From the NCBI GenBank assembly GCA_038043445.1, contig JBBTBY010000080.1, positions 1 through 46,362 of the forward strand: DNA of 46,362 nucleotides, given 5' to 3'. The notes beneath the pieces were generated by a model that had not been told where the DNA came from, ran no database searches, and worked only from the letters and a program-made list of their open reading frames with translations. This document shows, one piece after another, positions 5,959-45,997 of the stretch; positions within the stretch are counted from its first letter, which is position 1; each line of letters begins with the position of its first letter. The translations under genes were made by a program, and so were the position numbers. The DNA comes from Spirochaetota bacterium. Its GTDB lineage: Bacteria; Spirochaetota; Brachyspiria; Brachyspirales; JACRPF01.

Positions 5959-5977
5959 GCAGATCTGGGGAGGGAGC

Positions 5978-7507: not shown

Positions 7508-7514
7508 CACGCAT

Positions 7515-8375: not shown

Positions 8376-8378
8376 ACC

Positions 8379-9368: not shown

Positions 9369-9393
9369 ATGACGATTTTCCACGGGAAGGAGA

Positions 9394-10182: not shown

Positions 10183-10204
10183 TCATTGACAAGGCGTATC
10201 GCGC

Positions 10205-14934: not shown

Positions 14935-14997
14935 AGATATTCTATCAATACTCAAAAGCGCGCATTGGGCGCGAATACCCGCAAGGAGAGTCCTGCA

Positions 14998-19338: not shown

Positions 19339-19434
19339 CTACTTTATGATCCCTATGCAGCCGAAGCGCGAGGGGTCGCGTATTCCGTCAAGCCCGCCGA
19401 GCAAACGGAATGATGCGCCCGCGCCACCGTTATT
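19339..19434 (-). pseudogene. Relic C-terminal tail of a lost CBM9-like paralogue
   Basis: Directly after the stop codon of the 1,518-residue glycosidase gene, a second open stretch of 31 codons ends in TAG at 19339. It lies in a different frame. It reads NNGGAGASFRLLGG, LDGIRDPSRFG and CIGIIK. The living gene ends GGGLDENRNASKFG, RVVIIK, and the 1,117-residue gene of block B ends NNDGSGRIGWLGWSGGIG, DDKDPSQFGKL. The relic is therefore the last part of another CBM9-type domain. It has no start codon and a stop just upstream in frame. The join to the living gene is almost exactly at the stop codon, as expected after deletion or recombination between two tandem paralogues. Confidence 0.75.
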
Positions 19435-23986: not shown

Positions 23987-24006
23987 GGTGTTTTCTCCTT
24001 GTACTT

Positions 24007-27000: not shown

Positions 27001-27555
27001 GCGATACGTTTTCCCCGAATTCTCCAGGAGCTCTATGACGTTTTTACCTTTACGCGGTGTGAACGATGCACGTACGGTGACCGGATTTTTGAGGTCATTG
27101 GGAAGATATTGATGGAAGAGTTGCTCCGAGGGCAATGAGATGCGCAGGGAGTACTGCACGAGCGTATCGGGGTCGAGGTTCTCATTGAGCGGTCCGGGAC
27201 CGATGACAAGCACACCGGAATTGATGATCTTTATTTCGAATACGCGCGTACCTTCACCGTCGTCATCCCAGGTGATGAACTGCCGGTTCGCCCATGTCGG
27301 GTTTGCTGCCCCGGGCGACGATATACCTGCGGGGAATTTCGGGCGGCCGTTCTCGCCGAGGGCGGCCGTATAGGTGAACTGATGTTTGAGCGCATCATAT
27401 CCCGGAAGATTGGTGAATTCTCTCGAGTATATGAATTCCTTGCTGGAGTACGGTACGAATTCCGTGCTCGTTCCGTCGCTGACGCCGAGTTGCCATACCA
27501 CATCCGCGGGGAATGTCAACGTTGCGGTAATCAATATGATGGCTATGATTCTCAT
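24007..27555 (-). CDS. Secreted putative GH39-like glycoside hydrolase with C-terminal CBM9-like domain
   Basis: This 1,182-residue protein has signal peptide MRIIAIILITATLTFPADV. The N-terminal third (20-315) is beta-rich and contains a PROPEP-like accessory region. A clan-A TIM barrel follows (about 325-660), with acid/base Glu462 in EIEVWNEPSEF and nucleophile Glu556 in LYANETKSGI; the 94-residue spacing is normal for the clan. The C-terminal half has Ig-like and jelly-roll (CBM4/9-like) regions (ILNADTLSESAKAWTSWG onward). A CBM9-like domain (about 1000-1182) ends GWAGGLSDNGGAYHFGTLKL. GAGGAG precedes the start. It lies nine bases after the regulator gene and 20 before the next glycosidase, so the three are probably cotranscribed. 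Confidence 0.87.
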   Translation of the reverse strand: MRIIAIILITATLTFPADVVWQLGVSDGTSTEFVPYSSKEFIYSREFTNLPGYDALKHQFTYTAALGENGRPKFPAGISSPGAANPTWANRQFITWDDDGEGTRVFEIKIINSGVLVIGPGPLNENLDPDTLVQYSLRISLPSEQLFHQYLPNDLKNPVTVRASFTPRKGKNVIELLENSGKTYRRCYHYDYLKVMRENDAARNVPVLELAPARGFLHSTAYDRDKPAFLSLHVFNLVPRADAAVAVRFLDFFDTVIAERTVTGTANENGRMQLETPMPSVAGSVRAFASLSIGGTAQKIQMGKTNVMLRAAAVRTIAPMSEEEKDMQFLGMSSLEPTIFDPYDDRSYFEHDINDYRAWRRILGTFHERLHSLRWAHLEKNKGEYRWDFWDKLIDGEHRDGVRLQVTLLTIPEWHAKELYPDRKYIWDGTYSKPDMNEWRRLCTDVTTRYKGKISEIEVWNEPSEFSKFWYKADASDYFDLIKNASETVRAVDPRIAIVAETVWARQLDFSQKLYALGVGKYIDHPADHYWTDERLESVNLFLASVGTNRGLYANETKSGIRDNVGEVTEDLRKKSARMMLRNLIYGNANGIARTYEFMMRSLAERIYGLVNPDNTPKYLFSVMKTAVNRTAGARFEKRIALAANVDSFLYRYMNPVRIRENHGETALFIFNRAGTKPMSIYCGKDSVTLVDIMDNERIAATKGGVLTFTLDENPVIVLGADSRALLAQDDIAVNPPQIDALPDGTIEADIRITGTSPVTLIVESGLGPPIRTSLTPTGTLSSYRLRIPLNNAPEGDHIIRIRAERTPMIMLREIPVAVNKRPIGENILNADTLSESAKAWTSWGKGTLTRGVLRGMTTAKKEFVNSDTGGISIASPIAVQPSRSYLVSARLRGEGEFSTHFNTMFADGKRSPKDTGFFRAKLKPYWTPFSRKVNTAMNVSGMELNFLMFKTAGHFELGDVSVMRIDPLMPVNRILYRMNAKEGAAITADGDIGEWNAADFITVNDENAVAEDDWRDGDCSFSMAAAWKSGGIVLAITVTDDTDTPSTADETLADGDSVEIGMAPSIDISGSFRIAVGRKNGSTAVYRKSIIPSPDIVPSYRIGEAPEGITAAVVRSGSTTTYEIKNASPAIFPMFATAREKEIGFAVLVNDIDGDRKSRLGWAGGLSDNGGAYHFGTLKLQ

Positions 27556-30439: not shown

Positions 30440-30474
30440 TACCCGGCGCCGACCGTCATGTCGGCGCCGGGGTA
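30440..30474 (-). promoter_or_regulatory. GC-rich intercistronic hairpin enclosing the sulfatase stop codon
   Basis: CCGGCGCCGAC (30443-30453) pairs perfectly with GTCGGCGCCGG (30460-30470), and the stem extends through a further TACC/GGTA with one bulge. The six-base loop contains most of the sulfatase stop codon. No U-run follows on the minus strand, so it is more likely an RNA-stability or processing hairpin that separates expression of the LamG gene from the upstream genes than a full terminator. Confidence 0.6.
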
Positions 30475-31805
30475 TTGCCCTGTCCGGCATAGTGTGCCAT
30501 GGAATGGCCGAAAAGTAAATCGGCAACGCCCGATTTTTCGTGTATTCGATCGCGTTCATTGCGGTCATTCGTTGCGGTGAGCATCGCGCTTCTGGGATAC
30601 GCATCGAGTACGAAGGAAAGCTTCCATGAGCGGTCACGAATCATCATGAATTTGTCATCGCGGCGAATATGCTGCGGTGTGTACATGAATTCACTCATCA
30701 CCGGTGAGGCTTTGTCGGTATCTGAGGACGAAGTAAGCGACGGTGCGACATCGGCTGGCGGGGAAATACCCGCAGCATCAAGCAGCGTCGGCAACAGCGA
30801 TGCAGTGCTTGCCGGAGAGGAGAGTCGCGTCCCGCTCCGCATCGCGTTCGGATATCTGAAAATGAGCGGTACACGGATGACCGGATCGAAGAATGTCTGT
30901 TTCTGTATCAAGCCGAAATCGCCGAGATGCGTGCCGTGATCGGACGTGAATGCGATAATGGTGTTGTCAAGGATATTCTCTTTTTCAAGATACGAGATCA
31001 CGCGCCCGAATTCCATGTCGAGGAAGGAGGCATAGCCGTAATAGTAGCGGCGCATGGCGCGTTGCTGTGCCATTGACAAGCGAGAGGCATCCGCATAGCC
31101 GCTTTGTATCAAGCGCGATGTCCATTCAGGGTGATCGGCGGGAAAATGCATCGTGTTGTCAGGGAAGCGTATATCGCCTTCGCGTATCATCGTATCGTAG
31201 GGCGCGGGCGGTACTACCGGCGTATGCGGGCCGTTGAACGAGACTTTCAGCAGGAACGGTTTTTGTGTATCGCGACCGGCGAGCCAATCAAGTGCTTTCG
31301 ATGCGACGATGTGCTCCGAGGTCTCCTCAAGGGGTGCGGGGAATTTTCCGCCGAGTATCCAGCGCGACTTATCACCCGGATATTTCACAACATCGAATTC
31401 CGATTCATCGTATATTTTCGCATAATCAAAATAATCGACATGCGATGACAGTGTTATCTCTTCCTGCGTCTGGAACGCTTTGTTCTTTGCATTGAAATGC
31501 ATCTTGCCGAAACCGGCTGTTTGATACCCCGCATCGGCGAAATGATGCGTAAGGAAAGCCAGCGGCTCCTCCGCACGCCACTCATTGTGCCAGCATCCCG
31601 TCTCATGCGGCATTTTTCCCGTGGCTATCGATACGCGGGCGGGGACACAGGCGGGGGCCGGTGTGATAGCGTTCTCGAATACAACGCCTTCACGCGCGAG
31701 ACGGTCGAGGCAGGGCGTTTTCACCCATGGACTGCCGTAGCATCCGAGGGAGTCGGTGCGCTGTTCGTCGGTCATGAGCCAGAGAATGTTGGGCTGCCGA
31801 CTCAT
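30456..31805 (-). CDS. Sulfatase (formylglycine type), probably cytoplasmic
   Basis: This 449-residue alkaline-phosphatase-fold sulfatase removes sulfate esters, probably from sugars. The N-terminus PNILWLMTDEQRTDSLGCYG carries the metal-binding Asp pair region. The modification motif C-x-P-x-R is present as CVPAR (Cys53), followed by TGK. HETGCWHNEW, SDHGTHLGDFG (metal-binding Asp/His) and a C-terminal subdomain complete the family. The protein starts MSRQPN with no signal peptide, unlike most of its neighbours. The start at 31805 is supported by GGAG eight bases upstream. It needs a formylglycine-generating enzyme or anSME, neither of which is visible here. Confidence 0.92.
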   Translation of the reverse strand: MSRQPNILWLMTDEQRTDSLGCYGSPWVKTPCLDRLAREGVVFENAITPAPACVPARVSIATGKMPHETGCWHNEWRAEEPLAFLTHHFADAGYQTAGFGKMHFNAKNKAFQTQEEITLSSHVDYFDYAKIYDESEFDVVKYPGDKSRWILGGKFPAPLEETSEHIVASKALDWLAGRDTQKPFLLKVSFNGPHTPVVPPAPYDTMIREGDIRFPDNTMHFPADHPEWTSRLIQSGYADASRLSMAQQRAMRRYYYGYASFLDMEFGRVISYLEKENILDNTIIAFTSDHGTHLGDFGLIQKQTFFDPVIRVPLIFRYPNAMRSGTRLSSPASTASLLPTLLDAAGISPPADVAPSLTSSSDTDKASPVMSEFMYTPQHIRRDDKFMMIRDRSWKLSFVLDAYPRSAMLTATNDRNERDRIHEKSGVADLLFGHSMAHYAGQGNTPAPT

Positions 31806-31828
31806 AGCGAACTCCGCGTAATCATTGG

Positions 31829-34800
31829 TCACTGCCCGTTCAATTTTCCGAACTGCGACGGGTCCTTGTCATCGCCGATGCCGCCGCTCCATCCGAGCCA
31901 GCCTATGCGTCCGCTGCCATCGTTGTTGTTCACAAGTACCGACAGTCGCACGGGCTTTTTGGGATCAAAACTGAACGGATAGAATTCCGTCCAGTCGACA
32001 TGGACCTTGTACAGTGTACGCCCGTCACTCTTATCGATGTCGGCGCGCGCGTATTTCACTTCCCTGTCGGCCGCCGTCCAGTTCTGCGGTATATCGCCGC
32101 CGATAGCCGCGGACATATGCTTCCAAATGACCGTGCCGTTCGCCGTGAGCGCGACGGATATCTCGGTTTGATCACCTTTTGCGCCTAACCCTTCCGCGTC
32201 GAGCGCGAACTGTATGCTGTCGCCGTTGTACGCGGCACCCGGCTTCTCATTCTGCACGAATTTGTTGTCGCGGACATCGACGATGATGTCAAGCCCGGTC
32301 TTGCCGCAGTATGCAGCAAAACGCGCTTTGAAACCATCCGGGCGATCAGCGTTATTGATACCTCTGAACACCCAGTCGCCGGTATTCCAAACCGCGTCGG
32401 ATGAGACCGGTCCCGTAACGTCTGAAAATATCGGAGAAGGAGAGAGCGTGCCGTTCGGTGCATTTGCATCGCTTGATGCTTTCTTGCGCTCAAGCGGATA
32501 GAGCAATGCCGTCGCAGGGGCATCGATACCCGTAAGGGCATTCTCGCTGAAGCCGGAGAGATAGTACATCGATGCGGTATCGAGCATACGGTCGGTCCAC
32601 GGTTTCCCTTCCCACGTGACGGCGATGCTGTTGTACGCCTTTGCGAGCCGGGCATCGAGCGCTGCCGGCTGATCGCCTTCGTTCCATACGACAAGATGCT
32701 GTTTTCCGCCGCTCATGAGGAGAACCGCTTTCTGAGCGCCGAGATCGTATTCGCGCACATAACTGATGCGGTCGGTCACACGGTCGATGAAATTCCGTAT
32801 CACTACGCCGCACATGCGCGGTTCGATCGACGGCTGAGAGCGGAACATCCCTGATGTGTGTGTGAATATCCCGTTGGCTTTTGCGAACTCAAGTGTTTCC
32901 TTCTCCGCGAGGTTGCGCACCTCGAAGAGCGCGATGCGTCCGGCGCCGAATTTCAGCTGCTGCATGAGATCGGTCATCATGCGTCGGCAGAGCTCAGGTT
33001 CATCGGAAAGTTTATTCCCCGAAAGCGACATATTGATGAGCACCGCATGCCATTCGGTAGCACCCCACGGCTTGGGTGTGAGGTTGCGCTTTTTCTCAAG
33101 GTCCCAGAAGAGCTTTACTTCCGGGAAACTCCCGTGCATGGAGAGTATGTCGTAGTAGGGGAATCCGCCGGAGTCAAGGAATTCCCTATAGAAGGGGATG
33201 TATCGTCTTCCGCCCTGTCCGCCGAGCCACACGGTAGCGTTCGGCTGCAGCTGCTTAATCGTTTCGTACCCGCTCTTCACGAGCGTGACATAATTGCTCG
33301 TCGAATCGCGCCAGAAGCAGCTTCCCGTCGGCAGATGCGGCTCATTCCAGAGCTCCCAGTTCGAGATCCGATTTTTGTAGCGCCCGAGAAGCGCATTGAT
33401 GAAATCGGTCCACGCGGAGATATCTGTTGGAAGCCACACCGAATACCTCGCAACACAGATGTCGATATCGGTGCGGTCGGGGTAGGGTGATACCCATTGC
33501 GGTGTGCCGAAAAGCGTGAGGACGTTGTTCTTCATGCCGTATCGCTCCGCTTGTTCGAGCCCGCGGTCGATACCGTCCCATTGGAAAACGCCTTTCGCCG
33601 GGTTCACGATGCTTTTTTTGTTCCAGTGATAACCCCAGTGCACCCACATGCGCATGTAGCCGAAGCCAAGAATGGATGCCAGGTTCATACCGTCATTGTC
33701 ATCGCTCTGGTGATCGAAACCGAATTGATCGGAGCGTGCGCCGCTGTGTTTTTTTATCACCGCGACGCTGTAGCGTCCGCGGTCGAAGCGTTTCGTTGCA
33801 TCCTTCCCGCGAAGCGTAAAGCTGCGTACGAACGGACGCGTCGTGTTTGCGGTCAACGCGCCGAATGCGATCTCATAATACCCCGGAGCCGGAGCGCGCC
33901 ACACCCAGCCGTTCCTGATGAATGCTGCACGGTCAACGGTGATCTCCGTGACCTCTGCGCCGCTCGAGTCGTATATCGTCCCTTTCACAGCGGTTATTTC
34001 CTCCGGCGGATCTTCGCAGGTGAAACTGACCGGGGTGTCCTCGAACCAGGCGTACTCGTGCGACGGTTTGAGCTTAAATTCACGTCGTGTCATGCTTGTT
34101 GCGGCGATGATATCGTCGATAAAGAGCGTGCCGGCGGGGTTCTTCTGGCCGAGCAGGGCGCAGTTGATCCTGAAAGAGTCCGCATCCTTCGGTATGTCCG
34201 TGCGTGCGACCTCGATCGATATTGTCTGCCATGATCCCTTGCTCACGACCGACGGTATATCGGTGCGCGATATGAAGGCGCCGCCCTTGTTCCAGGTGAT
34301 GAATATCCACGGGTTCGCGTTCAGGGTGGAGGAAAGTTTGAGGGACGCCTCTGCGGATAGGAATTTAAAATCACCGGCGAGCGGCACTGCGGGCGAAGAA
34401 TATCCCACACTGCCGAGTTCGGTGGCCGTAATGAACAGCGACTGCTTTCCTGATGCTGCTTCATCGGAAGATACACCGAGCGCCTTCGTGTCGTTCTTCG
34501 CTGCCCAGCGGGTTATCACCCACTGCGTCGGCTGGTGTGCGGAAAACCCCGCTTCCGCGCGTGACGATTCGAACCCCGCGTTCGGTATCATGGATGCGGG
34601 GTTCGCCGCTGCACCTGCCGTGTCGGCGCTGGTATAGGCGAGCGCGAGTGCATCATAGAGTATGCCCCCGCTCCCGTCCGCCGCACCCTGCACGGCGAGG
34701 TTCACGGCAATGGAATCCGCTTCCGCAGGTATATCAGCACGGTCGATGGTGAGGCGCACCTGCTTCCATTCGGTCTGCGCAGAGCCGATGACCGCGTCCT

Positions 34801-35182
34801 TTTTGTTGAGGAATTTCTGCTTTGCATGCCAGCTGACGAACGCCCACGGCGTATGCTTTGAGAGATCAGCGTCCGCTTTTATCCGGAACGTGAGCACTAT
34901 CGTGGCGAAATTCTCCGGGAGCGCGATGTTCTTCGATATAAATCCGATGCCCCCCGGCGATATCGGGCGTATTGCGATCGCATATTCGCCGGATACGCCG
35001 CCTTTTACCGCGGTGCACTCCGCCGCCGCTGTTTTCGTCCATTTGTACACGGTCCAGCTTTCCGGCATCGTGATGCCGTCTTTCACGGTTGTCCGTTCAA
35101 AATCGCCGTTCGGCACGGTAAGCTCACCCGCGGTTGCCATCGCGATGATCGCGATAAATGATGTCATGGTTTTCTTTATCAT
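31829..35182 (-). CDS. Secreted GH-A-type glycoside hydrolase with two binding modules and C-terminal CBM9-like domain
   Basis: This 1,117-residue exported enzyme starts with signal peptide MIKKTMTSFIAIIAMATAGE. Two tandem CBM4/9-like jelly rolls (20-180, VPNGDFERTTVK; 200-355, IPNAGFESSRAEAG) precede an Ig-like linker. The clan-A TIM barrel (about 470-800) has Glu614 in NWELWNEPHLP as acid/base and Glu710 in WGATEWHAVL as nucleophile. A CBM9-like domain (945-1117) follows, with the locus signature VNNNDGSGRIG near the end. It is a close paralogue of the 1,153-residue enzyme upstream, sharing segments such as GTPQWVSPYPDRTDIDICV. The family is probably GH39/GH5-like; substrate unknown. AAGGAG is five bases before ATG 35182. 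The sulfatase follows after 23 bases. Confidence 0.87.
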   Translation of the reverse strand: MIKKTMTSFIAIIAMATAGELTVPNGDFERTTVKDGITMPESWTVYKWTKTAAAECTAVKGGVSGEYAIAIRPISPGGIGFISKNIALPENFATIVLTFRIKADADLSKHTPWAFVSWHAKQKFLNKKDAVIGSAQTEWKQVRLTIDRADIPAEADSIAVNLAVQGAADGSGGILYDALALAYTSADTAGAAANPASMIPNAGFESSRAEAGFSAHQPTQWVITRWAAKNDTKALGVSSDEAASGKQSLFITATELGSVGYSSPAVPLAGDFKFLSAEASLKLSSTLNANPWIFITWNKGGAFISRTDIPSVVSKGSWQTISIEVARTDIPKDADSFRINCALLGQKNPAGTLFIDDIIAATSMTRREFKLKPSHEYAWFEDTPVSFTCEDPPEEITAVKGTIYDSSGAEVTEITVDRAAFIRNGWVWRAPAPGYYEIAFGALTANTTRPFVRSFTLRGKDATKRFDRGRYSVAVIKKHSGARSDQFGFDHQSDDNDGMNLASILGFGYMRMWVHWGYHWNKKSIVNPAKGVFQWDGIDRGLEQAERYGMKNNVLTLFGTPQWVSPYPDRTDIDICVARYSVWLPTDISAWTDFINALLGRYKNRISNWELWNEPHLPTGSCFWRDSTSNYVTLVKSGYETIKQLQPNATVWLGGQGGRRYIPFYREFLDSGGFPYYDILSMHGSFPEVKLFWDLEKKRNLTPKPWGATEWHAVLINMSLSGNKLSDEPELCRRMMTDLMQQLKFGAGRIALFEVRNLAEKETLEFAKANGIFTHTSGMFRSQPSIEPRMCGVVIRNFIDRVTDRISYVREYDLGAQKAVLLMSGGKQHLVVWNEGDQPAALDARLAKAYNSIAVTWEGKPWTDRMLDTASMYYLSGFSENALTGIDAPATALLYPLERKKASSDANAPNGTLSPSPIFSDVTGPVSSDAVWNTGDWVFRGINNADRPDGFKARFAAYCGKTGLDIIVDVRDNKFVQNEKPGAAYNGDSIQFALDAEGLGAKGDQTEISVALTANGTVIWKHMSAAIGGDIPQNWTAADREVKYARADIDKSDGRTLYKVHVDWTEFYPFSFDPKKPVRLSVLVNNNDGSGRIGWLGWSGGIGDDKDPSQFGKLNGQ

Positions 35183-35234
35183 CAATACTCCTTATCCTTT
35201 CGCGGACGTAATGCATTTCGATCGGGAGGGATAA

Positions 35235-35313: not shown

Positions 35314-36891
35314 TCATTGCCTCACCGCCTCCGCCAACCGTTCCGCCATCTGCGCGAAACCGTCATCGTTCGGATGCACCCCCACTTTGTCAAAGAAACC
35401 GTCTTCGTGATCGATAAGCGACGGTCCGTCAATAAGTTTGATGTTCGCATCGCCCAGAGCGGCGACGATCTCACGTATCGTCCTCCGGTATTCTTCAAGC
35501 TCTATCGTTGCGGTTGCGGGTTTCCATGAAGCCGGTACCCAGAGCGGCGTGATGATGATGAGCGGTACGTTCGGCTGAACGCCCCTCAGGTTCTTCAGGA
35601 AACCCTCGTAGTTCGACTTGAACGACGCTATCGCCCGCCCGCCCTGCCAGTCGTTCACACCGATGAGAATACTTATGACATCACCGTTCTGCGATGCGAT
35701 GAACGCCCCTTCGTTCGGTGATGCGCTGCGCCCGCCTATACCCATATTCACGAGCTGCCAATCCATCCTGTTCGCAAATCGGAATATATATGACTTGGTC
35801 ACTTCGCTCGCGGTGAATCCGTGTGTGACGGAATCGCCGTATGCTATGAGGCGTTTCGTCGGACGCGGCGCGGGCGTTTCAAAACGCGCATTGTCGGGGA
35901 CCGTTATGCCGAGCACGTCGACCGAGTCGCCATAGGGGAGGACGATTGTGTATTCGTGCATGCCGGAAGACGGCGGCGTTATCGGAACGATGACGGTTTC
36001 GGGTTTTCGAACTGTCGATGTCTGTGCGGAAGTGAATCGCCACGAGCTGTCGCTTTTTCCGTCAATGGAATATCGTCCTATGGGGTTGCGCGCCGATGTC
36101 GAGACATGCTTCTCATTGTAGTAGAGATGCACGGACACTGACGCGGCATCGGTCTTGAACCGGAGCCGTGTTCCGGGATTATCCCATTGATACCCTTTGC
36201 CGCCCGGATCGATGATACGGTCGAAACGCACTGCTCTTCCGGCGGGGGTATCGACGATGCTTTTCCGTGCATAGTCGGAATAGAAAAGCCGTGTATCGTC
36301 TGAGGGCAGAAAACTGCTGTTACCGGTCTGCTGCATCGACGCCTCCCTGGCCCTCGCGCCATATACTTCCACCTTCCTCAGAAAGACATAGTTCAGATCG
36401 CTCTTGTTCATGAACCCGATCGCATGCCTGTCCTTGAATATTATCCTTACATATCGGATGTTGCTTTTGTTCAGCGTGCCGAGCTCGAAGATCTCCTGTG
36501 AATAATTTGCGAATTCCTTTTCGCCGATCGTTGTGAATTCGGCATTATCCGGCGATACCGCAACAGTGACGGTTTTCGTGCCGCCTTGTTTCGAATTGTA
36601 AACCTTTATTCTATCGACGTAATACGATCCCTCGAGGTCTATGGTGACCGTTTTCGGGAATTGTGCGGCATTGCCGGTGGCATATGTCGATGTCTTGTCG
36701 TCAGTCGAGAGGTCACCGTCCGTCAGGAACGAGTAGAATCCCCGCCCCACACTGGGATTGGGATCCGATGATACATGCGGTTTTTTCTGCGCAATATTTT
36801 CATAGGACGTCACGGGGGCCTGCGCGAGTATCTGCCCCGCGGCCGCGCACAGAGACAGGAGCGATTGGAAGAGAAAGCGGTGTTTTTTCAT
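35314..36891 (-). CDS. Secreted SGNH/GDSL carbohydrate esterase with F5/8C-type binding domain
   Basis: This 525-residue esterase probably removes acetyl or other acyl groups from polysaccharides. After a signal peptide (1-24, ending LAQAP) there is a discoidin/CBM32-like domain (about 28-185, with FLTDGDLSTDDK and VTIDLEGSYYVDRIKVYN). A jelly-roll domain of the CE2-like type follows (200-335), then the SGNH domain. Block I is YGDSVTHGF with Ser354, the Gly block is MGIGGRSA, the Asn block is IGVNDW, and the last block is VGVHPNDDG with His506. The usual Asp three residues before His is Val503; Asp501 lies five before. It starts six bases after the 816-residue gene. Confidence 0.87.
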   Translation of the reverse strand: MKKHRFLFQSLLSLCAAAGQILAQAPVTSYENIAQKKPHVSSDPNPSVGRGFYSFLTDGDLSTDDKTSTYATGNAAQFPKTVTIDLEGSYYVDRIKVYNSKQGGTKTVTVAVSPDNAEFTTIGEKEFANYSQEIFELGTLNKSNIRYVRIIFKDRHAIGFMNKSDLNYVFLRKVEVYGARAREASMQQTGNSSFLPSDDTRLFYSDYARKSIVDTPAGRAVRFDRIIDPGGKGYQWDNPGTRLRFKTDAASVSVHLYYNEKHVSTSARNPIGRYSIDGKSDSSWRFTSAQTSTVRKPETVIVPITPPSSGMHEYTIVLPYGDSVDVLGITVPDNARFETPAPRPTKRLIAYGDSVTHGFTASEVTKSYIFRFANRMDWQLVNMGIGGRSASPNEGAFIASQNGDVISILIGVNDWQGGRAIASFKSNYEGFLKNLRGVQPNVPLIIITPLWVPASWKPATATIELEEYRRTIREIVAALGDANIKLIDGPSLIDHEDGFFDKVGVHPNDDGFAQMAERLAEAVRQ

Positions 36892-36897: not shown

Positions 36898-39348
36898 CTA
36901 CCAGGAGATGAGAAGATCATCTGTGACGTTGTCGATCGCAAGGCATTCACCGTCCGCGGTCATCTCCCGTTTCGGCGTAACGAAATCACCTTTCAGGAAT
37001 GGGTTTTGCGGGTTCTTGAGGAAGGTCACCTTTGCATCGGTTCCCGTCTCGGGGAAAAAGCGCACCGTCGCGTTCTTCGTGCCGCGCAATCGCAGCCGCC
37101 GCGTGACTCCTACCATGCCGGAGCACTGCTCCGCGCATGAAACATCGGATGCTTCTTTCTGATCGATGAAAATGCGGCATTCACGCCGCCATGCTTTCGG
37201 CATGCGGTAGGATGACCGCCCGTTCTCGATGAATGTCTCAAGTCCGCACAGTGCCGGTGCTCCGTACGGGAATCTGAACGTCTGGGATACTCCCACGTTC
37301 GGCGAATGACCGGCGAAGTAGAATCCGCCTTTGTGGCGTGATACCGTCATGATGGGATTCTTCTGTGCACTTTCGCGTTTGTCGAGCATGAGATCGATAC
37401 TGAACGCGGACATCATCAGACGCATGAGGAGCTCGGGATAGAAAAACTCGTTCTGATCGCGCATGCCGGGCAGATGGGCTGCATGATGTTCCGGCAGTGC
37501 GAACGAATTCGTCCCGCGTACCCAGGTAATGCCGCCGCCGTTCCATTCCTTCTGCCTGCGCGAGAGCGCTATCACGCGTGTTTCTCCGTTTTTCGATACT
37601 GTTGCCGCGGTGTCTGCCTTTCCCGAAAGGACGGTCGTGATGCCGCCGGCGGATGATAATGGATCATGCAAGATCTTCACCGCTGCTTTACGCGCGGTCA
37701 GCGTATCGCACGGGATGGATACAGCGATATCCATTTCGCCGTCTATCGGCGATGCATGGGATATGCCGAGGAGATCGAGCATTGTTCTGTCCGCGTGGTC
37801 GGTGGGGCCATAGAGCATAAGCCGTCCGCCTGCCTCTACATGCGCGATGAGCGCTTTCGCGATAGCCCCGTTCGACGGTACCGGCGACGTGATTATCGTC
37901 TGTGCGAATCGCTTCGGATCCTTCGCGAGCGCGGAGAGATAATTCTTCGTGCTTACGACGGTATTCACCGGAAAGCCGTTATTTATCGCCGTGCGCATGA
38001 ACCAGTCGCCGAAGAACACCTCTCCGATGCGTTTGCCGTCGTACGCCATATCGTGATATTCATCGAACGGGTAAAGCCATGTGATAAGCCCCGGCGCGTC
38101 GGGCGATGTGCCGAAGCAGTCGAGCATGAACGGTATCACTTCGTTGGGTATGAGGTCCTGCGTCTGTCCGTACGTCCCGTCGACGGAGAGAATGTTCACA
38201 TCTGTGGGGAGCGACATATCACCGTTCCCGTCGACACGCGCGACCGCGAGCGGGAGGTAAATGTCATGCGGTTCGCGTCCGTAGCGGTCTATCCACGGAT
38301 CATTGATGAACCACAGATCGTGCACGTAGAAACGGAACGGATATGTCGTTCCCGGTATCTCGGCGATATGGCTCATCCAGCCGGCGAGCTCAAGGCCGAA
38401 GTCGCCGTTGAGCGCGGCCCATGGAGAATTGGGCGGCGGTTCGAGCCCGTATCCGCTGCGATAGATCTCGCGGAGCGGTACACCGTCGCTCGCAAGGTCG
38501 CGGCCTGTCGTCTGATTCGTACCCCGCGTGCGGAGCGGCAGGCTCGGGCATTCGCGGCGGAAGCTCGCCCAGAAATCGAGCGATATCTTCTTTACATCGT
38601 TCGCTTTTGCGGGGCTGAATTCCTTCCCGTTAAACACAGCACCGTACATTCCCCATGTTTCCATCCCGAAGCCGAAGCCGTTGGAGAGCCAGAGGAATTC
38701 GAATCCCATGTCGGCGCAGAATATCCTGCTCTGCCGTCCGAGGAATTCACCAAGCAGCGTCCCTTCCGGGATGCCGTTCGGATAGCCCGCGTATTTCCCT
38801 TTGTCCGCATGGAGCGTCGAATAGCAGACGACGAAGCTCGCCTTGCCCATGGTGCCGCCGAGGCATATCTCCGGATGCTTCTCGTATTTGAATTTCGACT
38901 TCGCGAATTCCGGGCCAGGATCGAATGTGGCGCCGAGACGTACGGGTTTTCCCGTGACCGCATGGCATTCCTCGCGTATTATCTCAAGGAAACGCTTGTA
39001 CCAGCGGTAGGTGAAGAGCGGCGGATTATCGATATAGGTGTACGTTGTGTGATGTATGCATTTTTTATTCGGGTCGCTGTCAGGGAGTTTTTCCCCGCGT
39101 GGATTGGCTACACCGACGGTGTACGACCATTCGAATTTCTCATCGAGATCGCCTTTGTAATCGAGTATCTCCGATCCGTCCGATGTCCACATCATGATCG
39201 AGACGCGGTCGGCGTGCTTGGTGAGCGCCAACCACTGTATGAATATTTCACGGGCTTTTGCACGTATCCCCGCTTCCGATGTGTCGATGAACGGGCGTAA
39301 GCTCAGTTCCAGTGTGACATCGTTGATCGTTCTGTTCAGGTACGGCAT
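36898..39348 (-). CDS. Large cytoplasmic protein of unassigned family, possibly a glycoside hydrolase
   Basis: This 816-residue protein has no signal peptide. It opens MPYLNRTINDVTLELSLRPF and has a long alpha/beta N-terminal half: HADRVSIMMWTSDGSEIL, LFTYRWYKRFLEIIREEC, LGATFDPGPEF, FEFLWLSNGFGFGMETWG and ITWLYPFDEYH. This could be a TIM barrel. Residues about 460-560 (AIAKALIAHVEAGGRLMLYG, then TDHADRTMLDLLGI) resemble the flavodoxin/GATase-like domain found after the barrel in GH42-type enzymes. The C-terminal 250 residues are beta-rich. I do not know a named family. The start at 39348 is set by AAGGAG six bases upstream. Its position among glycosidases supports a glycan role, by inference. 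Confidence 0.7.
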   Translation of the reverse strand: MPYLNRTINDVTLELSLRPFIDTSEAGIRAKAREIFIQWLALTKHADRVSIMMWTSDGSEILDYKGDLDEKFEWSYTVGVANPRGEKLPDSDPNKKCIHHTTYTYIDNPPLFTYRWYKRFLEIIREECHAVTGKPVRLGATFDPGPEFAKSKFKYEKHPEICLGGTMGKASFVVCYSTLHADKGKYAGYPNGIPEGTLLGEFLGRQSRIFCADMGFEFLWLSNGFGFGMETWGMYGAVFNGKEFSPAKANDVKKISLDFWASFRRECPSLPLRTRGTNQTTGRDLASDGVPLREIYRSGYGLEPPPNSPWAALNGDFGLELAGWMSHIAEIPGTTYPFRFYVHDLWFINDPWIDRYGREPHDIYLPLAVARVDGNGDMSLPTDVNILSVDGTYGQTQDLIPNEVIPFMLDCFGTSPDAPGLITWLYPFDEYHDMAYDGKRIGEVFFGDWFMRTAINNGFPVNTVVSTKNYLSALAKDPKRFAQTIITSPVPSNGAIAKALIAHVEAGGRLMLYGPTDHADRTMLDLLGISHASPIDGEMDIAVSIPCDTLTARKAAVKILHDPLSSAGGITTVLSGKADTAATVSKNGETRVIALSRRQKEWNGGGITWVRGTNSFALPEHHAAHLPGMRDQNEFFYPELLMRLMMSAFSIDLMLDKRESAQKNPIMTVSRHKGGFYFAGHSPNVGVSQTFRFPYGAPALCGLETFIENGRSSYRMPKAWRRECRIFIDQKEASDVSCAEQCSGMVGVTRRLRLRGTKNATVRFFPETGTDAKVTFLKNPQNPFLKGDFVTPKREMTADGECLAIDNVTDDLLISW

Positions 39349-39362
39349 GGAAACTCCTTGTA

Positions 39363-39920
39363 TCAATTATCGTTTTTAATGCCGGTGACGGCATCATAGA
39401 ACAGTGTTCCTTCGTAAGCAGTGCCGAGCGACAGCGTCGCCAGGCATACACGGATATGTGTGCATGCGGCGGGTATATCGCTTCGGCGCACGGTGAATGA
39501 GAGTTGTTTCCATTCGTTATCGGCGAGTGTTTTCGGCGCATCGATATTGTTTATGAACCGATCGTTCTGCCAGATCGTGATGAATATCCAGGGGCGGTTG
39601 CCGGCATAGTCGGCGGACTTTCGCTGATAGAACGTGAACGAATAGGACAGCGTGTTCGATGTGAGCGCTATCGGATGCGAAACGATGCCTGCTGCACCGG
39701 TAGTGATGCTCCTCACCGCGACGGCATTGCTCCCGTCATAGGACGATCGCACGACGCCGATGCGCACATCGTCAAGCGATCGGTCCCACGCATACCATTC
39801 CCAGCCGATAGGAAGCAGGCGCCCGCCGTTCATCTGTACGCGTTCAAAGCTTCCATTGCTGATGACGGACTCTCCGGCAGAGAGGAGCGATGCGAGCAGC
39901 AGTGTGCAAAGAATTCTCAT
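39363..39920 (-). CDS. Secreted stand-alone CBM4/9-like module
   Basis: This 185-residue protein starts with signal peptide MRILCTLLLASLLSAGES and consists of one jelly-roll module: ISNGSFERVQMNGGRLLPIG, WYAWDRSLDDVRIG, AAGIVSHPIALTSNTLSYSF, NRPWIFITIWQNDRFIN, DNEWKQLSFTVRRSDIPAAC and GTLFYDAV. The two N-terminal modules of the 1,117-residue glycosidase show the same landmarks in the same order (NGDFER, WAFVSWHAKQKFLN, EWKQVRLTIDRADIPAEADS, GGILYDAL). No catalytic domain is present. Its start codon overlaps the stop of the preceding glycosidase (ATGA), suggesting coupled translation. Glycan binding is inferred. Confidence 0.8.
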   Translation of the reverse strand: MRILCTLLLASLLSAGESVISNGSFERVQMNGGRLLPIGWEWYAWDRSLDDVRIGVVRSSYDGSNAVAVRSITTGAAGIVSHPIALTSNTLSYSFTFYQRKSADYAGNRPWIFITIWQNDRFINNIDAPKTLADNEWKQLSFTVRRSDIPAACTHIRVCLATLSLGTAYEGTLFYDAVTGIKNDN

Positions 39921-42900
39921 TCCGGTTCCAGTTTCCCATAGTACACGGCATCTTTCGCCGCACCGATGCCGCTTGACCATTCGAGATATCCTGCGCGCCC
40001 CGCGCCGTCGTTGTTGTTGATGAGCACGGAGAAGCGTACCGTTTTTCTTGCCGAGACATCGAACGGGTAAAGCTCGGTTGCATCGATATGGATACGGTAG
40101 CGCAGTGACGGCCCGTTCCTGTCGATGAGAATGCGTCCGTGCTTAAGCGGCGCGTTCGCGGCCGTCCAGCGCTGCGGGAGGTCGCCCCCCACTGAAGCAG
40201 CTATCGCTTTATAGATGAGCGGTCCTGTTGGTGTGAGAGCGGCGACGAATTCCGTCTGCCCGTACAGCGATCCGGTCCCATCCGTGTCTATCGCGAACTG
40301 TACACTGTCGCCTTTCCAGTAGTCGGGCATTTTCTCGTTCTGTGTGAACACAGGGTCCTTCACGTCGATGACGATATCAAGACCCTGCGCACCAATCGAT
40401 AGGGCGAATCTGCCCTTAAGACCGTCGGGCTTCGGTACACTTGTCTGCACATAGTTCCAGTCGACATTGACCCACGGAAGCGTATCGGCGGTGTTCAGAT
40501 CAGTATCGAGAATAGGTTTTGTAGCATAGCGTGCACGCGGGACCGCGACCGCGGCTTTCAGCGCCCTCACGTCGGGATTGAGCGATGCCGTCGACTGCGG
40601 AAGCGATGCGAAGAGCGATTCGGGGAGCCCTTTGATGAAATACATCCGTTCCGGTTCAACAGCGAACGCCCCGGTGAGCGGATAGCCTTCGGCGGTGGTG
40701 ACCGCGGCAGATGCGAGTGCACTCCGTATGCGGCTGTCGGGCTCGGCCGATGATCCTTCCGTCCAGAGCACGGCGAATGTCTTTGCACCGTCCTTGAAAT
40801 ACACGATGCGCTGCCCGGATGTAAGATCTGCGGTGCCTGTATAAACGAGTGTTGATGACACCTGATCGATGAACACGCGGAGCGCTACCGCTGCCGGACG
40901 CGGTTCTACGAGGGGGCGATGACGGAAAAGCCCTGCCGACTGCTGGAACGATCCGTCCTCGAAGGCTACGGGCAGCAGTTCCTTTTCGCCGTGTCCTTCC
41001 ATCATTGTGAAAACCGCAATGCGCTGCGCTCCGTATTTCAGCTGATCGCAGAGATCGAGGATCATGCGCTTGGCGAGCGCCGCTTCGCTCGGGGGCTTTT
41101 CCATGGCGCTGATGAGTATGCCGTGCCACTCCGTCGATCCCCATACGCGGCTCGGTGCCTTGAACGAGGTCTCAAGCTCCCTGAACTCTGGTATCGATGA
41201 GCCCGGCCATGCGCCGTGCATCGAGAGCACATCGAACGGTGCACCGCCGAGCCTGAGGAATTCGCGGTAGAAGGGGAGATAGCGTTTGCCGCCCTGGCCG
41301 CCGAGCCAAACGCGGTGCGACGTATCGATTCGCTTGATCGTATCGTAGCCGCTTTTCACGAGCTCAGCGTATTTTTCCGTCGTGTCGCGCCAGAACACGC
41401 TGCCGTTGGGAAGATGCGGTTCATTCCACATCTCCCAATCCTTCATGGAGGAGCCGTAGCGCTTTACGATAGCTTCGACGAAATCGGTCCAGTCCTTCAT
41501 GTCCGTCGGCGCCCAAGCTGCGAATTTCGAGACGCAGATGTCGACCTCGGTGCGGTCAGGGTAGGGAGATGCCCACTGCGGCGTGCCTATCAGTGTAGCA
41601 AAGAATTCATTGATGCCGTATTGCTTCAGTGTCTCTATCTTTTCGTCCATGTGTTTCCAGTCGTACTCACCGCGTTTTTTCGCGACGATCTTGGTCTTGT
41701 CCCAGTGATCGCCCCAGTCGACCCAGATGCGGGCGAAATTGAAACCGATGAACGATGCAAGCTTCGCCTCTCTGTCATTGGCCGTATCCGGCGTCACGCC
41801 GAACTGCGGCGGACGTTTTCCCGTTATCGGCGGCATGACAGCCACGGCGCGGCGCGCGCGCGAAAACTGCTTAACCGTGCCGCGCGTTGTCTGCAGATTG
41901 TACGCGAGTGCAAGCGGTATATCCTTTCCGTCGGCATGGTACGAGAATGCGATCTCGTAATACCCCGGTGCTGATGGCTGCCATTTCCATCCGCCGTTCA
42001 TGAATGCCGCACGGGGCAATGTGAGCTCCGTTATCTTTCTATTACGCGCATCGTACACTGTTCCGGTGAACGAACGTATCGCTTCATCGATGATGCCGCC
42101 TTCGGGAAGGAATGTCACCGGTTTGCCGACCGTGAACCAATTGTATTCCGCTGAGCCGGTGATGTTGAGCCCGAGTGTCGATGTGCGCCGGGCGGTACGT
42201 TCATCTGCCGATACCGCATCAAGTGAGCGCGAAAGGAGTGACTGGATCTCGCTGCCCGAGAGCACACGGTCATAGACGAATACATCATCGAGGTCACCTT
42301 TCATTGCGCGTATCGGTCCGCCGGCATTCGCCTGCCCGAGACAGTAGCGGTCGGCGTTCACGAACGGCTGATGCTTCGCTGTGCCGGCCCCGGCTGATCT
42401 GCCGTTGATATAGAATACGTAGCTTCCGTCCTCGCCGTATGTCATGGCGATATGCGTCCAATCCCCTGCGGCTACTGCGGCGCTGGAATTCGCCACGCCG
42501 GCAATGTCCGAACGTATCAGCGCGAGTTTGCCGTCCGCATTTACCCGGAAGTAATGGCATCCCTTCGCATCGCCCGCGTAAATGGAGTGCTGCCCCTCCG
42601 GGGTATGTGTCTTTTCGCCGAAATGCTCGGAGCGAAACCATGCGGCGATCGTGAAATTCTGGCCGAGCACGGGCGCGCCGTCGCCGACGATCTTTCCCGT
42701 AGCGCCGTCGAAGCGTACCGCCTGTCCGTTCTTGCCGGGGGTGTATATCGTTCCGGCAGCAAGGTCGCCGTGCGCGTTGCCGGCGCGGTCATAGATGGTG
42801 AGGCCGGAGGCATCGCCCGTATCGAATGACCAGCATCCGACGGGGCCGTCCGATCCGAGCCGCCGAGGATTGACACCGAGCGATGGTTTTACGGTCTTTT

Positions 42901-43378
42901 CATCGGCGATGAATTTGATATCGCCTAACTCGAACCAGCCATTGGCCTTGAACATGAGATAATTCATCGTGAAGAGCGCAGTGCCGTTGGATATTGAGAT
43001 GCGTTTTTTTATTTCCTTCCAGTCAGCGCCGAGCGCACCGAGGTCCTGCATGTCCTTGATAAGGACTTTCTTCGTCCCGTCATACTGGAAGAAATGCGCT
43101 GCAAGGCGGCCGGCACCGCGTACCTTGAGCGTGAGCGTGTGCATGCCGTCGCTGACGGCAACGTGCGAGGTGATTATGCCGCCGGTGGAATCCGGATCGG
43201 GGAAGCTCACCTTTATGGACGGCGTGCCGTTGAAGCCGTCGGAAATGAATTCCGTGCCAATCGACTTCGTCGACTTCCATTCGCTGAAAAGTCCCCCCTG
43301 TTTCAGCGCATCCGCTCCGATGTCGGCAGCGTACGCCGATACCGCAAGCGATAGTATGATCGTAAGATATGATCTCAT
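39917..43378 (-). CDS. Secreted GH-A-type glycoside hydrolase with LamG and CBM9-like modules
   Basis: This 1,153-residue exported enzyme has signal peptide MRSYLTIILSLAVSAYAAD. A CBM4/9-like module (20-155) comes first, then LamG (about 175-375, VGCWSFDTGDASGLTIYDRA, GDWTHIAMTYGEDGSYVFYI) and an Ig-like linker. The TIM barrel (about 505-835) has Glu653 in WEMWNEPHLP and Glu750 in WGSTEWHGIL as the likely acid/base and nucleophile, 97 residues apart. A CBM9-like domain (965-1153) ends NNNDGAGRAGYLEWSSGIG. It is paralogous to the 1,117-residue enzyme (shared YDIAFS-type linker, GGQGGKRYLPFYREFL, TPQWASPYPDRTEVDICV), but carries LamG where the other has a second jelly roll. Confidence 0.88.
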   Translation of the reverse strand: MRSYLTIILSLAVSAYAADIGADALKQGGLFSEWKSTKSIGTEFISDGFNGTPSIKVSFPDPDSTGGIITSHVAVSDGMHTLTLKVRGAGRLAAHFFQYDGTKKVLIKDMQDLGALGADWKEIKKRISISNGTALFTMNYLMFKANGWFELGDIKFIADEKTVKPSLGVNPRRLGSDGPVGCWSFDTGDASGLTIYDRAGNAHGDLAAGTIYTPGKNGQAVRFDGATGKIVGDGAPVLGQNFTIAAWFRSEHFGEKTHTPEGQHSIYAGDAKGCHYFRVNADGKLALIRSDIAGVANSSAAVAAGDWTHIAMTYGEDGSYVFYINGRSAGAGTAKHQPFVNADRYCLGQANAGGPIRAMKGDLDDVFVYDRVLSGSEIQSLLSRSLDAVSADERTARRTSTLGLNITGSAEYNWFTVGKPVTFLPEGGIIDEAIRSFTGTVYDARNRKITELTLPRAAFMNGGWKWQPSAPGYYEIAFSYHADGKDIPLALAYNLQTTRGTVKQFSRARRAVAVMPPITGKRPPQFGVTPDTANDREAKLASFIGFNFARIWVDWGDHWDKTKIVAKKRGEYDWKHMDEKIETLKQYGINEFFATLIGTPQWASPYPDRTEVDICVSKFAAWAPTDMKDWTDFVEAIVKRYGSSMKDWEMWNEPHLPNGSVFWRDTTEKYAELVKSGYDTIKRIDTSHRVWLGGQGGKRYLPFYREFLRLGGAPFDVLSMHGAWPGSSIPEFRELETSFKAPSRVWGSTEWHGILISAMEKPPSEAALAKRMILDLCDQLKYGAQRIAVFTMMEGHGEKELLPVAFEDGSFQQSAGLFRHRPLVEPRPAAVALRVFIDQVSSTLVYTGTADLTSGQRIVYFKDGAKTFAVLWTEGSSAEPDSRIRSALASAAVTTAEGYPLTGAFAVEPERMYFIKGLPESLFASLPQSTASLNPDVRALKAAVAVPRARYATKPILDTDLNTADTLPWVNVDWNYVQTSVPKPDGLKGRFALSIGAQGLDIVIDVKDPVFTQNEKMPDYWKGDSVQFAIDTDGTGSLYGQTEFVAALTPTGPLIYKAIAASVGGDLPQRWTAANAPLKHGRILIDRNGPSLRYRIHIDATELYPFDVSARKTVRFSVLINNNDGAGRAGYLEWSSGIGAAKDAVYYGKLEPE

Positions 43379-43464: not shown

Positions 43465-44478
43465 TCAGTACGTCCCTGCATGGGCTGCTTCCACCAGAGC
43501 GCGGTAGTTCTCCGGCTTCACCGTATCGATTATCGAATGGCTCGATGCGACCACATAGCCGCGTCGATCGGACAGCCTGCGGATGTGCTCTTTCGTGTCG
43601 GCCGCTACCGCCTCCGGTGTCCCGAAGCTTAACAGCTCCTGCACGCAGATATTCCCGACGATGGTGAAATCGGGATACTTTTCGTGTATCGCATACACAT
43701 CGTTGACCACGGTCTGCACCGGGTTTATCGCATTCACTTTCCAGTCGGCGAAGAACGGAAGCACGTCCTTCATCGGTCCGCAGCAATGACACATAACCGG
43801 GCGGCCGGTCGCGCGTGCCGCTTCGATGATCTTCGCTTCGCGCGGCGCCCAGAGCTGGGCAAGGTGATCGGGACTCATGAAACCGGTGACATCATCGCCG
43901 ATGTAGAAGAAGTGGAAGGGGATGTCCTTCGTCGCTTCGATGACGTCGAGCGCGAATTTCGTATAGAGGTCAAGAAGTCTTGCGACGAGTTCGGGCTGTT
44001 CATATATCATGAGCATGAACGATTCTATCGCGGTCGGTCCGGCTGACATATATGCGGCGGTGAGCGGTCCTGCGAGATTGGCGCATACGCCGATGCCGGT
44101 GCCCTTCACGGCGGCGAGGTATCTCTCCATTTTTCCGCGCATGTCATTCATTGACGGGGGAACGATCGCGGCAATATCATCCATCGTTCTGACGCTCGCA
44201 TGCTTTGCGTGCATACGAAGCGCGCAGGGTATGGCGTCCTGCCCGACAAGTTTCGCCATCGATATCACATCGGCAAGGACATCCTCGTTCCAGAAGCTGT
44301 AACCGTCCGGCAGGGCATGGCCGAGGAGCGCTTGTGCATTCGTTTTATTGATGGCGATTTCGAAATTCGGCGTGCGGTCATGCGGCTCCTTGCGGAACGC
44401 ATGGATGAGCCGCGATATATCAGGTGCCACATGGCTCTCTGTGCTCTCCGTGTTCTCTGTGGTTCTATTTGTTTTCAT
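43465..44478 (-). CDS. Uroporphyrinogen decarboxylase-family protein (URO-D/MtaA-like)
   Basis: This 337-residue URO-D-superfamily TIM barrel includes tetrapyrrole decarboxylases and methyltransferases that act on corrinoid or methylated compounds. Typical pieces are RLIHAFRKEPHDRTPNFEIA, YIGDDVTGFMSPDHLAQLW, PVMCHCCGPMKDVLPFFADW and FTIVGNICVQELL (metal-ligand-type His/Cys residues in MCHCCG). A heme role is unlikely because no other heme gene is near. Residues 5-16 (RTTENTESTESH) are encoded by a CACAGAG-type repeat. A GTG at 44430, after that repeat, would start right before the conserved region. The annotated ATG overlaps the isomerase gene by 14 bases. Confidence 0.85.
   Translation of the reverse strand: MKTNRTTENTESTESHVAPDISRLIHAFRKEPHDRTPNFEIAINKTNAQALLGHALPDGYSFWNEDVLADVISMAKLVGQDAIPCALRMHAKHASVRTMDDIAAIVPPSMNDMRGKMERYLAAVKGTGIGVCANLAGPLTAAYMSAGPTAIESFMLMIYEQPELVARLLDLYTKFALDVIEATKDIPFHFFYIGDDVTGFMSPDHLAQLWAPREAKIIEAARATGRPVMCHCCGPMKDVLPFFADWKVNAINPVQTVVNDVYAIHEKYPDFTIVGNICVQELLSFGTPEAVAADTKEHIRRLSDRRGYVVASSHSIIDTVKPENYRALVEAAHAGTY
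44432..44465. repeat. CACAGAG-type repeat arm at gene junction
   Basis: Read on the minus strand, the unit GAACCACAGAGAACACGGAG (from 44465) continues with AGCACAGAGAG. It matches the left arm of the inverted repeat at 35235-35257 at 20 of 23 positions. It starts on the last base of the isomerase stop codon and lies within the first codons of the URO-D-family gene. Only one arm is present here. Confidence 0.7.
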
Positions 44479-45928
44479 TGCAGTTGCCCTTTACCACGAC
44501 CGCTTCAATGCCGAGTGCGTCCGCTATCTTCTTTATCGTCGCGGCATGTCTGCCCACACCGAGCGCGTAATGATGCGTCGGGCCTTCCATGACCCATGCC
44601 TTGATGAAGTCGCGCGTGTTCGGCGGGAAAAAGCCGCGCGTGTTGGTGTTCCCCGTCGGCGGTATCATCCCTTTTTTCGATTCGCCTTCGCCGATGACGA
44701 ATTTGAATTTTCCGTCGGCCTTCTGGGTGATGCCGAGCATGGTGATGGGGCCTTCCTTTATCTTGAACTCCACGCCCGCGCCGCTTCCCGGCTTGCCGTG
44801 ATACTTGGTGAGCGAACGGAGCACCGGCTTTCCGTCGGCGATATTCAGATGGTGAGGTCCGTCATGGCCTACCAGTATGAAGTCTTCCGAGAAATCGAAG
44901 GGATGGAATTCGGCGAAGCTGCCGCCGATGCCGAGCCTGTCCATGATAAGCATGGCGACATTGGTCTTAATATCGAATTCGCCGCACATGGGAAATCCTT
45001 TGGCGAGGAGAAGCGAATTGCCGACGATGAGCGTCGTCGCGATGGTGCGTTCGAGCGATTCGGGCTCACCTTCGTAGTAGTAGGCGAGGCCGGTGAGATC
45101 GAATTTCTTGATGAGACGGTCCAGTGCGCAGGCGCTCTTTGCCGCCTGTTCGAGGTCTTCCTTTGTGAGCTTCTTTGTCACCGGGTCCGATTTCGGATTG
45201 GGGAAATCGAATATCGCTTCGATGGCTTTGATCTTTTCCTTTACTTCTGCGTCGCTTACCTGCTTGTAGCATGCGGCGAGATCGGCTATCTCGATGAGCG
45301 GTACGTGTACGCCGAAGGCGGACGATATCGCGGTGGGGTCGGCATGCATGTCATACATCGATTCAAGGACATGGCCCATGAGACCGAGCCGTGCGCCCTT
45401 GAGCGAGCGGAGCACCCGTGCTATCGCGCACCATTCTTTTATCTCGGCATCCGCGCGCACGTCGCCGGTGAGCGTTCCGATGATGACGTCCGCAACTTTT
45501 TTACCGAGCCGTACTGCGACACCGGTGAATTCCGGCACGCTGCAGATATTATCGTTCTCAAGCTGCATGTAGGTGGACGCTTTGGTGTAATCCATGGCTG
45601 CCCGCGGCTGAAGCGCAACGAGAATGACCGGGACAGCGGCATCCCGCATGATCGGCGCGAACACTGAGGATGTGGCGTAGGTGAGCATATTACAGAAAAG
45701 AATGTCGACGTCGGCTGCCTTTATCTTTGTGAGCGTATCATATGCCTTGGCGTTGGTGTCGACCATACCGAAGTCGATCACCTCAGCGCCGAAAGCATCC
45801 ACTTTCTTCTTCAGCTCTCCGTGGTATCCCATAAGCCCCTGCAAGAGGCCTTCGAATTGATGCCAATAGGTGTCATGTCCCACGCCGAAGAGGCCGATGC
45901 GGGCTTTTCTCTGGTTCGCAGCGTTCAT
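44465..45928 (-). CDS. L-fucose/L-arabinose isomerase-like protein
   Basis: This 487-residue protein is of the sugar ketol-isomerase superfamily (FucI/AraA fold), likely cytoplasmic. The N-terminus ARIGLFGVGHDTYWHQFEG and the Rossmann-type region FCNMLTYATSSVFAPIM match AraA-like proteins. Later, LMGHVLESMYDMHAD, GFPMCGEFDIKTNVAMLIMD (metal-binding Glu region), GHDGPHHLNIADGKPVLRSL and EGPTHHYALGVGRH supply the conserved Glu/His residues. It probably converts an aldose released from the polysaccharide to its ketose, but the exact sugar is not clear. The start at 45928 is supported by GAGGAG six bases upstream. It leads block B behind a good promoter. Confidence 0.85.
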   Translation of the reverse strand: MNAANQRKARIGLFGVGHDTYWHQFEGLLQGLMGYHGELKKKVDAFGAEVIDFGMVDTNAKAYDTLTKIKAADVDILFCNMLTYATSSVFAPIMRDAAVPVILVALQPRAAMDYTKASTYMQLENDNICSVPEFTGVAVRLGKKVADVIIGTLTGDVRADAEIKEWCAIARVLRSLKGARLGLMGHVLESMYDMHADPTAISSAFGVHVPLIEIADLAACYKQVSDAEVKEKIKAIEAIFDFPNPKSDPVTKKLTKEDLEQAAKSACALDRLIKKFDLTGLAYYYEGEPESLERTIATTLIVGNSLLLAKGFPMCGEFDIKTNVAMLIMDRLGIGGSFAEFHPFDFSEDFILVGHDGPHHLNIADGKPVLRSLTKYHGKPGSGAGVEFKIKEGPITMLGITQKADGKFKFVIGEGESKKGMIPPTGNTNTRGFFPPNTRDFIKAWVMEGPTHHYALGVGRHAATIKKIADALGIEAVVVKGNCNENK

Positions 45929-45997
45929 TGATGGCTCCTCGTTTTTCATTGGGGATAACATATACACGGATATGCCGTCCGGCTTGGCGGGAATGAC

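Follow-up and report, generated by a model that had tools for sequence, protein, structure and literature searches.

The gene at 36898..39348 on the minus strand of the window, by which we mean the whole 46,362-nucleotide stretch of Spirochaetota DNA that was analysed, encodes a real and widely conserved protein (here P0001) that has no name in Pfam, NCBIfam, PHROGs or PDB sequences. Its predicted fold, conservation, operon and partner gene together point to an intracellular exo-glycosidase that feeds an aldose isomerase. Specifically, P0001 would probably act in the cytoplasm as an exo-glycosidase from a family unnamed in the libraries searched, freeing by hydrolysis the aldose used by the isomerase.

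The P0001 gene and its relatives

An earlier note, made from the sequence alone, had described an 816-residue protein at 36898-39348, and an open frame lies exactly there on the minus strand. It is a single unbroken frame of 816 codons that runs from an ATG at 39348 to a stop codon at 36898-36900, and an alternative TTG start is found six codons further upstream of the ATG. The gene and its start signal are as follows.

36898..39348, minus strand: gene for P0001, the 816-aa unnamed protein, stop codon included (open reading frame and 59 relatives)
39354..39359, minus strand: Shine-Dalgarno sequence AAGGAG, 5 nt before the P0001 ATG at 39348 (sequence)

Inspected by eye, the N-terminus (MPYLNRTINDVTLELS) shows no signal peptide. 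The GC content of the gene (56.5%) is close to that of the window (55.4%), and by this crude measure the gene therefore does not look foreign.

Searches of Pfam, NCBIfam, PHROGs and PDB sequences with P0001 and with its profile matched no family, so the remark in the earlier note that the sequence matches no family holds for these libraries. Among 20 family members none scored above the Pfam cut-off for GH42 (PF02449), and sub-threshold matches were observed to Glyco_hydro_42M (PF08532, the Rossmann-like trimerisation domain) in two and to GLMA_2nd in three. GH164 chains were absent from the PDB sequence matches of P0001 and of its profile at E 10, and comparison of the family profile with GH42 sequences from the host genome and a family relative gave only short, weak matches. 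We also found no curated NCBI model or solved structure that matches P0001 by sequence, no description of the family in a literature search, and no relatives in viral contigs.

Relatives with 31-75% identity occur in Verrucomicrobiota, Lentisphaerae, Spirochaetota, Planctomycetota, Chloroflexota, Hydrogenedentota and Omnitrophota, and the closest copy (75%) belongs to a genome recorded as 'Spirochaetes bacterium'. A single scan across bacterial and archaeal genomes returned 18 relatives from seven phylum-level groups. In genome samples that are not exhaustive, and whose groups are named after the titles under which the centre loci are recorded, the family is present in 41 of 289 genomes of the Verrucomicrobiota/Lentisphaerae group (a count that leaves out one fragmentary match), 5 of 296 Spirochaetota, 7 of 246 from the Planctomycetota group and 2 of 251 from the Chloroflexota group. 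An alignment of 59 distinct full-length members from the sampled set contains 35 invariant columns, indicating that the gene is real and more than a chance reading frame. Mean pairwise identity among these 59 is 51% in the barrel versus 32% for the rest of the protein. Several divergent members lie in longer frames of 958-1121 aa (L109, L110, G481:C29, G762:C2 and G647:C1), where the profile match splits near residue 540.

Predicted fold and active-site residues

The AlphaFold2 model of P0001, built from 19 sequences, has a mean pLDDT of 85.4 and a pTM of 0.90, and is divided into three predicted domains.

37975..39348, minus strand: predicted (beta/alpha)8 barrel, residues 1-458 (AlphaFold2 model)
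Predicted barrel strands 1-8: residues 8-15, 46-53, 136-142, 218-221, 272-274, 336-341, 381-387 and 422-426 (AlphaFold2)
37378..37974, minus strand: predicted Rossmann/GATase-like (GH42 domain-B-like) domain, residues about 459-657, boundary approximate (AlphaFold2 and Foldseek)
36901..37377, minus strand: predicted C-terminal beta domain, residues about 658-816 (AlphaFold2)

The model agrees with two suggestions of the earlier note, namely that the N-terminal half is barrel-like and that the middle resembles the GATase-like domain that follows the barrel in GH42 enzymes; the two motifs that it quoted are both present, around residues 494-530. The (beta/alpha)8 barrel that characterizes clan GH-A is likewise present in the model, as judged by AlphaFold2 and Foldseek.

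When the full-length model was compared with the PDB using Foldseek, GH42 beta-galactosidases ranked first (Gan42B, 5dfa, and Bl-04, 4uni; E 3e-14), followed by the GH164 beta-mannosidase Bs164 (6t5o, E 2e-11; PMC7105311), which has the same three-domain architecture, and by the GH5 mannosidase 7bob (E 5e-9), an enzyme with a GH42-type homotrimeric structure (PMC8233224). P0001 and the GH42 enzymes share the order of barrel, Rossmann-like and beta domains. However, the barrel of P0001 has no significant sequence match to that of GH42 and is without Glu on strands 4 and 7, and the C-terminal part of P0001 is longer. Because the overall TM to GH42 is only about 0.4 (0.37-0.42), with an rmsd >10 A, the likeness to GH42 and GH164 is, on this model, one of architecture and not of close superposition.

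The barrel modelled alone gave a poorer structure (pLDDT 69.7) that matched mostly unrelated glycosidase barrels and old-yellow-enzyme (flavin) barrels, with E values between 1e-5 and 1e-3, and GH42 was absent from the first 50 matches. Thus, as far as the models go, the likeness of P0001 to GH42 rests on the three-domain layout. The top match of the barrel alone was the endo-1,3-fucanase 9jp2 (E 2e-5), which we take to be GH168-type; this match is weak, comes from a low-confidence query model and has no counterpart in sequence, and 9jp2 is a single-barrel enzyme. We rejected the barrel-alone model (pLDDT 70) as a guide to the nearest family, as it is the worse model and has no clear nearest family.

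Strand 4 of GH42 and GH164 enzymes ends with an Asn followed by the acid/base Glu, and strand 7 with the nucleophile Glu (PMC7105311). The corresponding strand ends in P0001, together with other strand ends that carry conserved acids, are listed below.

38902..38928, minus strand: strand 3 end TFDPGPEFA, with D143 and E147 invariant in 59/59 (alignment)
38653..38685, minus strand: strand 4 end SNGFGFGMETW, with N223 invariant (alignment)
38317..38319, minus strand: D344, strand 6 end, invariant (alignment)
38179..38181, minus strand: D390, strand 7 end (GH-A nucleophile position), invariant Asp in 59/59 (alignment)
38059..38061, minus strand: E430, strand 8 end, in 56/59 (2 Asp, 1 Gln; alignment)

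P0001 and Bs164 both have an Asn where strand 4 ends (N223 and Asn-159, respectively), but where Bs164 has Glu-160 on strand 4 and Glu-297 on strand 7 (PMC7105311), P0001 has Gly-224 and Asp-390. The same is true across the family. Position 224, the site of the GH42 acid/base Glu, is Gly in 56 and Ser in 3 of the 59 members, so that the Asn-Glu of clan GH-A is found in none of them, and the nucleophile position on strand 7 is Asp in every one. By contrast, the nine GH42-like proteins from the host genome and the family relative that we aligned all keep both Glu. The check proposed in the earlier note, which looked for a pair of Glu where strands 4 and 7 end, therefore fails. With strand 4 reading SNG (Ser in place of Gly in 3 members) and strand 7 reading VD with the invariant Asp 390, the standard catalytic pair of clan GH-A is, by alignment, absent from the P0001 family.

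Among the polar and charged residues invariant across the 59 members are E14, D143, E147, E160, D182, N223, R275, R339, D344 and D390, as well as His 158. Five of the invariant acids lie at or near the ends of strands 1, 3, 6 and 7 (E14, D143, E147, D344 and D390). Candidate catalytic acids would be E147 or D143 on strand 3, D344 on strand 6, D390 on strand 7 and E430 on strand 8. E230 is kept in 49 of 59 members, and it was ruled out as a shifted acid/base because 10 have lost it. Note that pLDDT falls below 50 in the active-site loops 164-171, 230-235, 285-289 and 431-443.

The operon and its isomerase

Domain searches revealed a run of genes on the minus strand from 45967 to 29748 that codes, in order, for an AraA/FucI-like isomerase, a URO-D-fold protein, a LamG/GH39-like/CBM9 protein, a CBM_4_9-like protein, P0001, a GDSL esterase, a weakly GH42/GH10-like protein, a sulfatase and a LamG protein.

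44465..45967, minus strand: AraA/FucI-like aldose isomerase, co-occurring partner of the P0001 family (domain match and co-occurrence)
43465..44478, minus strand: URO-D-fold (MtaA/CmuA-like) protein, gene overlapping the isomerase gene by 14 bp
39917..43378, minus strand: 1153-aa protein with LamG, GH39-like barrel and CBM9, signal-peptide-like N-terminus by eye (domain search)
39363..39980, minus strand: CBM_4_9-like protein, just upstream of P0001 (E 5e-4, below the Pfam cut-off)
35314..36891, minus strand: GDSL esterase with F5/8 type C domain, just downstream of P0001 (domain search)
31829..35185, minus strand: 1118-aa protein with weak GH42/GH10 match, signal-peptide-like N-terminus by eye
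30456..31832, minus strand: sulfatase (PF00884, 1e-49)

The 6-bp gap between the P0001 and GDSL esterase genes and the overlap of the isomerase and URO-D genes give the spacing expected of one operon. This gene content bears out the earlier description of the gene as lying inside a carbohydrate-degradation operon. No transporter gene was found in it. The host genome is rich in glycosidases, with 32 matches to PF02449 that reach an E of 0.001, although many cover the model only in part. Members of the family elsewhere have GH106, GH20, GH42-like and sulfatase genes as neighbors. URO-D genes also adjoin family members in three other loci (L007, L017 and L066), and a role for the URO-D-fold protein in methyl-sugar demethylation is a guess.

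The window also contains four very large proteins of 1118-1526 aa (24007-27555, 19430-24010, 31829-35185 and 39917-43378) with only weak or partial GH39, GH53 and GH42 matches, which are possibly further unassigned glycosidases. A 1452-aa BadF/BcrA-type ATPase with DUF2229, of the CoA enzyme activase type, is encoded on the plus strand at 14965-19323, and ordinary flagellar export genes (FliP, FliR/FlhB-type, FlhA, FlhF), a sigma factor and FapA occupy 367-12172.

The isomerase is distantly related to L-arabinose isomerase. A profile of its subfamily, built from 17 aligned members, matches E. coli AraA over 390 positions at E 3e-17, but the protein scores only 66.9 bits against the NCBI AraA equivalog model, far below the cut-off of 622. 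E330, E353, H368 and H466 are invariant in all 17 members and were matched, in a PDB alignment, to the four metal ligands of E. coli AraA, which we take to be E306, E333, H350 and H450. The window isomerase is single-copy in its genome, where the next match is 23% identical; its gene is not adjacent to P0001 and lies four genes upstream in the same putative operon.

Across the Verrucomicrobiota/Lentisphaerae group the isomerase subfamily (taken as matches from about 750 bits upward, with one split copy added) is present in 45 of 289 genomes, and 39 of these 45 carry the P0001 family. Conversely, 39 of the 41 genomes with the P0001 family hold the isomerase subfamily and two do not (Fisher p 2e-39, a value that ignores the relatedness of genomes). 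The two genes are separated by <1.1 kb in 23 of the 39 genomes and by <200 bp in 20, counting pairs on the same contig, with contig ends hiding some. A sister isomerase subfamily (417-471 bits) occurs in 26 genomes and, by manual count, shares only two with the P0001 family, indicating that the link is specific and not a general trait of sugar degraders. This coupling of the P0001 family to one AraA-like isomerase subfamily is new here.

Proposed function, alternatives and a distant homologue

In the pathway that we propose, secreted glycosidases, the sulfatase and the esterase would trim a sulfated or acetylated glycan outside the cell, and the imported oligosaccharides would be cut in the cytoplasm by P0001, probably a trimer, with a GH42-like architecture of barrel, Rossmann-like and beta domains in which the active-site acids would be arranged differently. 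The AraA-like metal isomerase of the operon would then convert the freed aldose to a ketose. Plausible aldoses are the AraA-type substrates L-arabinose, L-fucose or D-galactose. Rhamnose or fucose as a fixed substrate, as the GH106 neighbors and the fucanase match might suggest, was rejected since GH106 adjoins in few loci and the neighbors vary (GH20, sialidase-like, sulfatase).

The earlier note had proposed a new glycoside hydrolase family, and much of this proposal stands, given the predicted TIM barrel with acidic strand-end residues, the predicted GH42-like Rossmann domain, the invariant acids, the carbohydrate operon, and the finding of neither a sequence family nor a clear match to a non-hydrolase family. 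None of the observations that the note named as refuting the proposal was made. The strand-4/7 Glu pair does not stand, and we regard the proposal as good but unproven. A larger claim, which we make tentatively as quite possibly correct, is that P0001 represents a new GH family that does not belong to clan GH-A. Such an enzyme would have the three domains of the GH42 type but would have lost its strand-4 acid/base, would have its catalytic acids elsewhere in the barrel and would be paired with a new AraA-like isomerase subfamily in an undescribed aldose pathway common to Verrucomicrobiota, Lentisphaerae, Planctomycetota and some Spirochaetota.

There is a modest chance that P0001 belongs to an existing CAZy family that has no Pfam, NCBIfam or PDB member, as CAZy gains families faster than Pfam; this reading overlaps with our own and differs only on novelty, and the lack of any matching solved structure or curated NCBI model, as well as the empty literature search, argue against it. 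A non-standard active site with invariant Arg 275 and Arg 339, His 158 and several acids, together with an isomerase partner that is nearly always present, could also suit an enzyme that cleaves glycosides by other chemistry (as a phosphorylase, a lyase, or with the assistance of a metal or cofactor) and still feeds the isomerase. We think this unlikely, however, as no phosphate- or cofactor-binding signature was recognised in P0001 and its neighbors in the window are hydrolases.

In our judgment P0001 is very unlikely to be a divergent retaining beta-glycosidase of the GH42/GH164 type, belonging to clan GH-A and working by an ordinary Glu/Glu mechanism, even though GH42 and GH164 are the top structural matches, Glyco_hydro_42M is weakly matched in 2 of 20 members, and strand 4 (WLSNGFG) resembles WHLSNEYGG in a GH42 protein of the same genome. 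All 59 members have Gly or Ser at the acid/base position, strand 7 offers Asp in place of Glu, 10 of the 59 have lost E230, and both Glu persist in all nine GH42-like proteins noted above. The loss of the strand-4 Glu could alternatively mark a catalytically dead glycosidase relative that senses sugars or serves as a scaffold. We give this reading very little credence, since the acids of an enzyme that has died are usually lost, whereas here many acidic and polar strand-end residues stay invariant among members with as little as 31% identity, and conservation is far higher in the barrel (51%) than in the remainder of the protein (32%).

If the glycosidase reading that we prefer is true, a family carried by about one in seven of the Verrucomicrobiota genomes sampled can be named as glycosidases, and the isomerase gives a direct handle on the substrate, as it has to accept the sugar released by P0001. 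A GH42-like scaffold that keeps the strand-4 Asn without the acid/base Glu would also bear on mechanism change in barrel glycosidases.

Finally, a distant homologue of the barrel was detected by tblastn in Nonomuraea gerenzanensis (L105:5884-7125, profile score 95.7 bits), where it carries no annotation. In its reliable profile-aligned part E147, H158, E160, D182, Q206 and N223 are kept and D143 is replaced by Glu, and E14 is also matched in a looser alignment. Its VDPW and NDTFG motifs resemble D344 and D390 by eye, with D344 not placed by the automatic alignment, and the protein looks cut short at its C-terminal end, ahead of strand 8. The homologue adjoins genes for a binding protein, ABC-transporter-like permeases, a LacI-type regulator, GH1 and GH3 (the regulator and permeases being assigned by eye), and thus appears to lie within a sugar-uptake operon.
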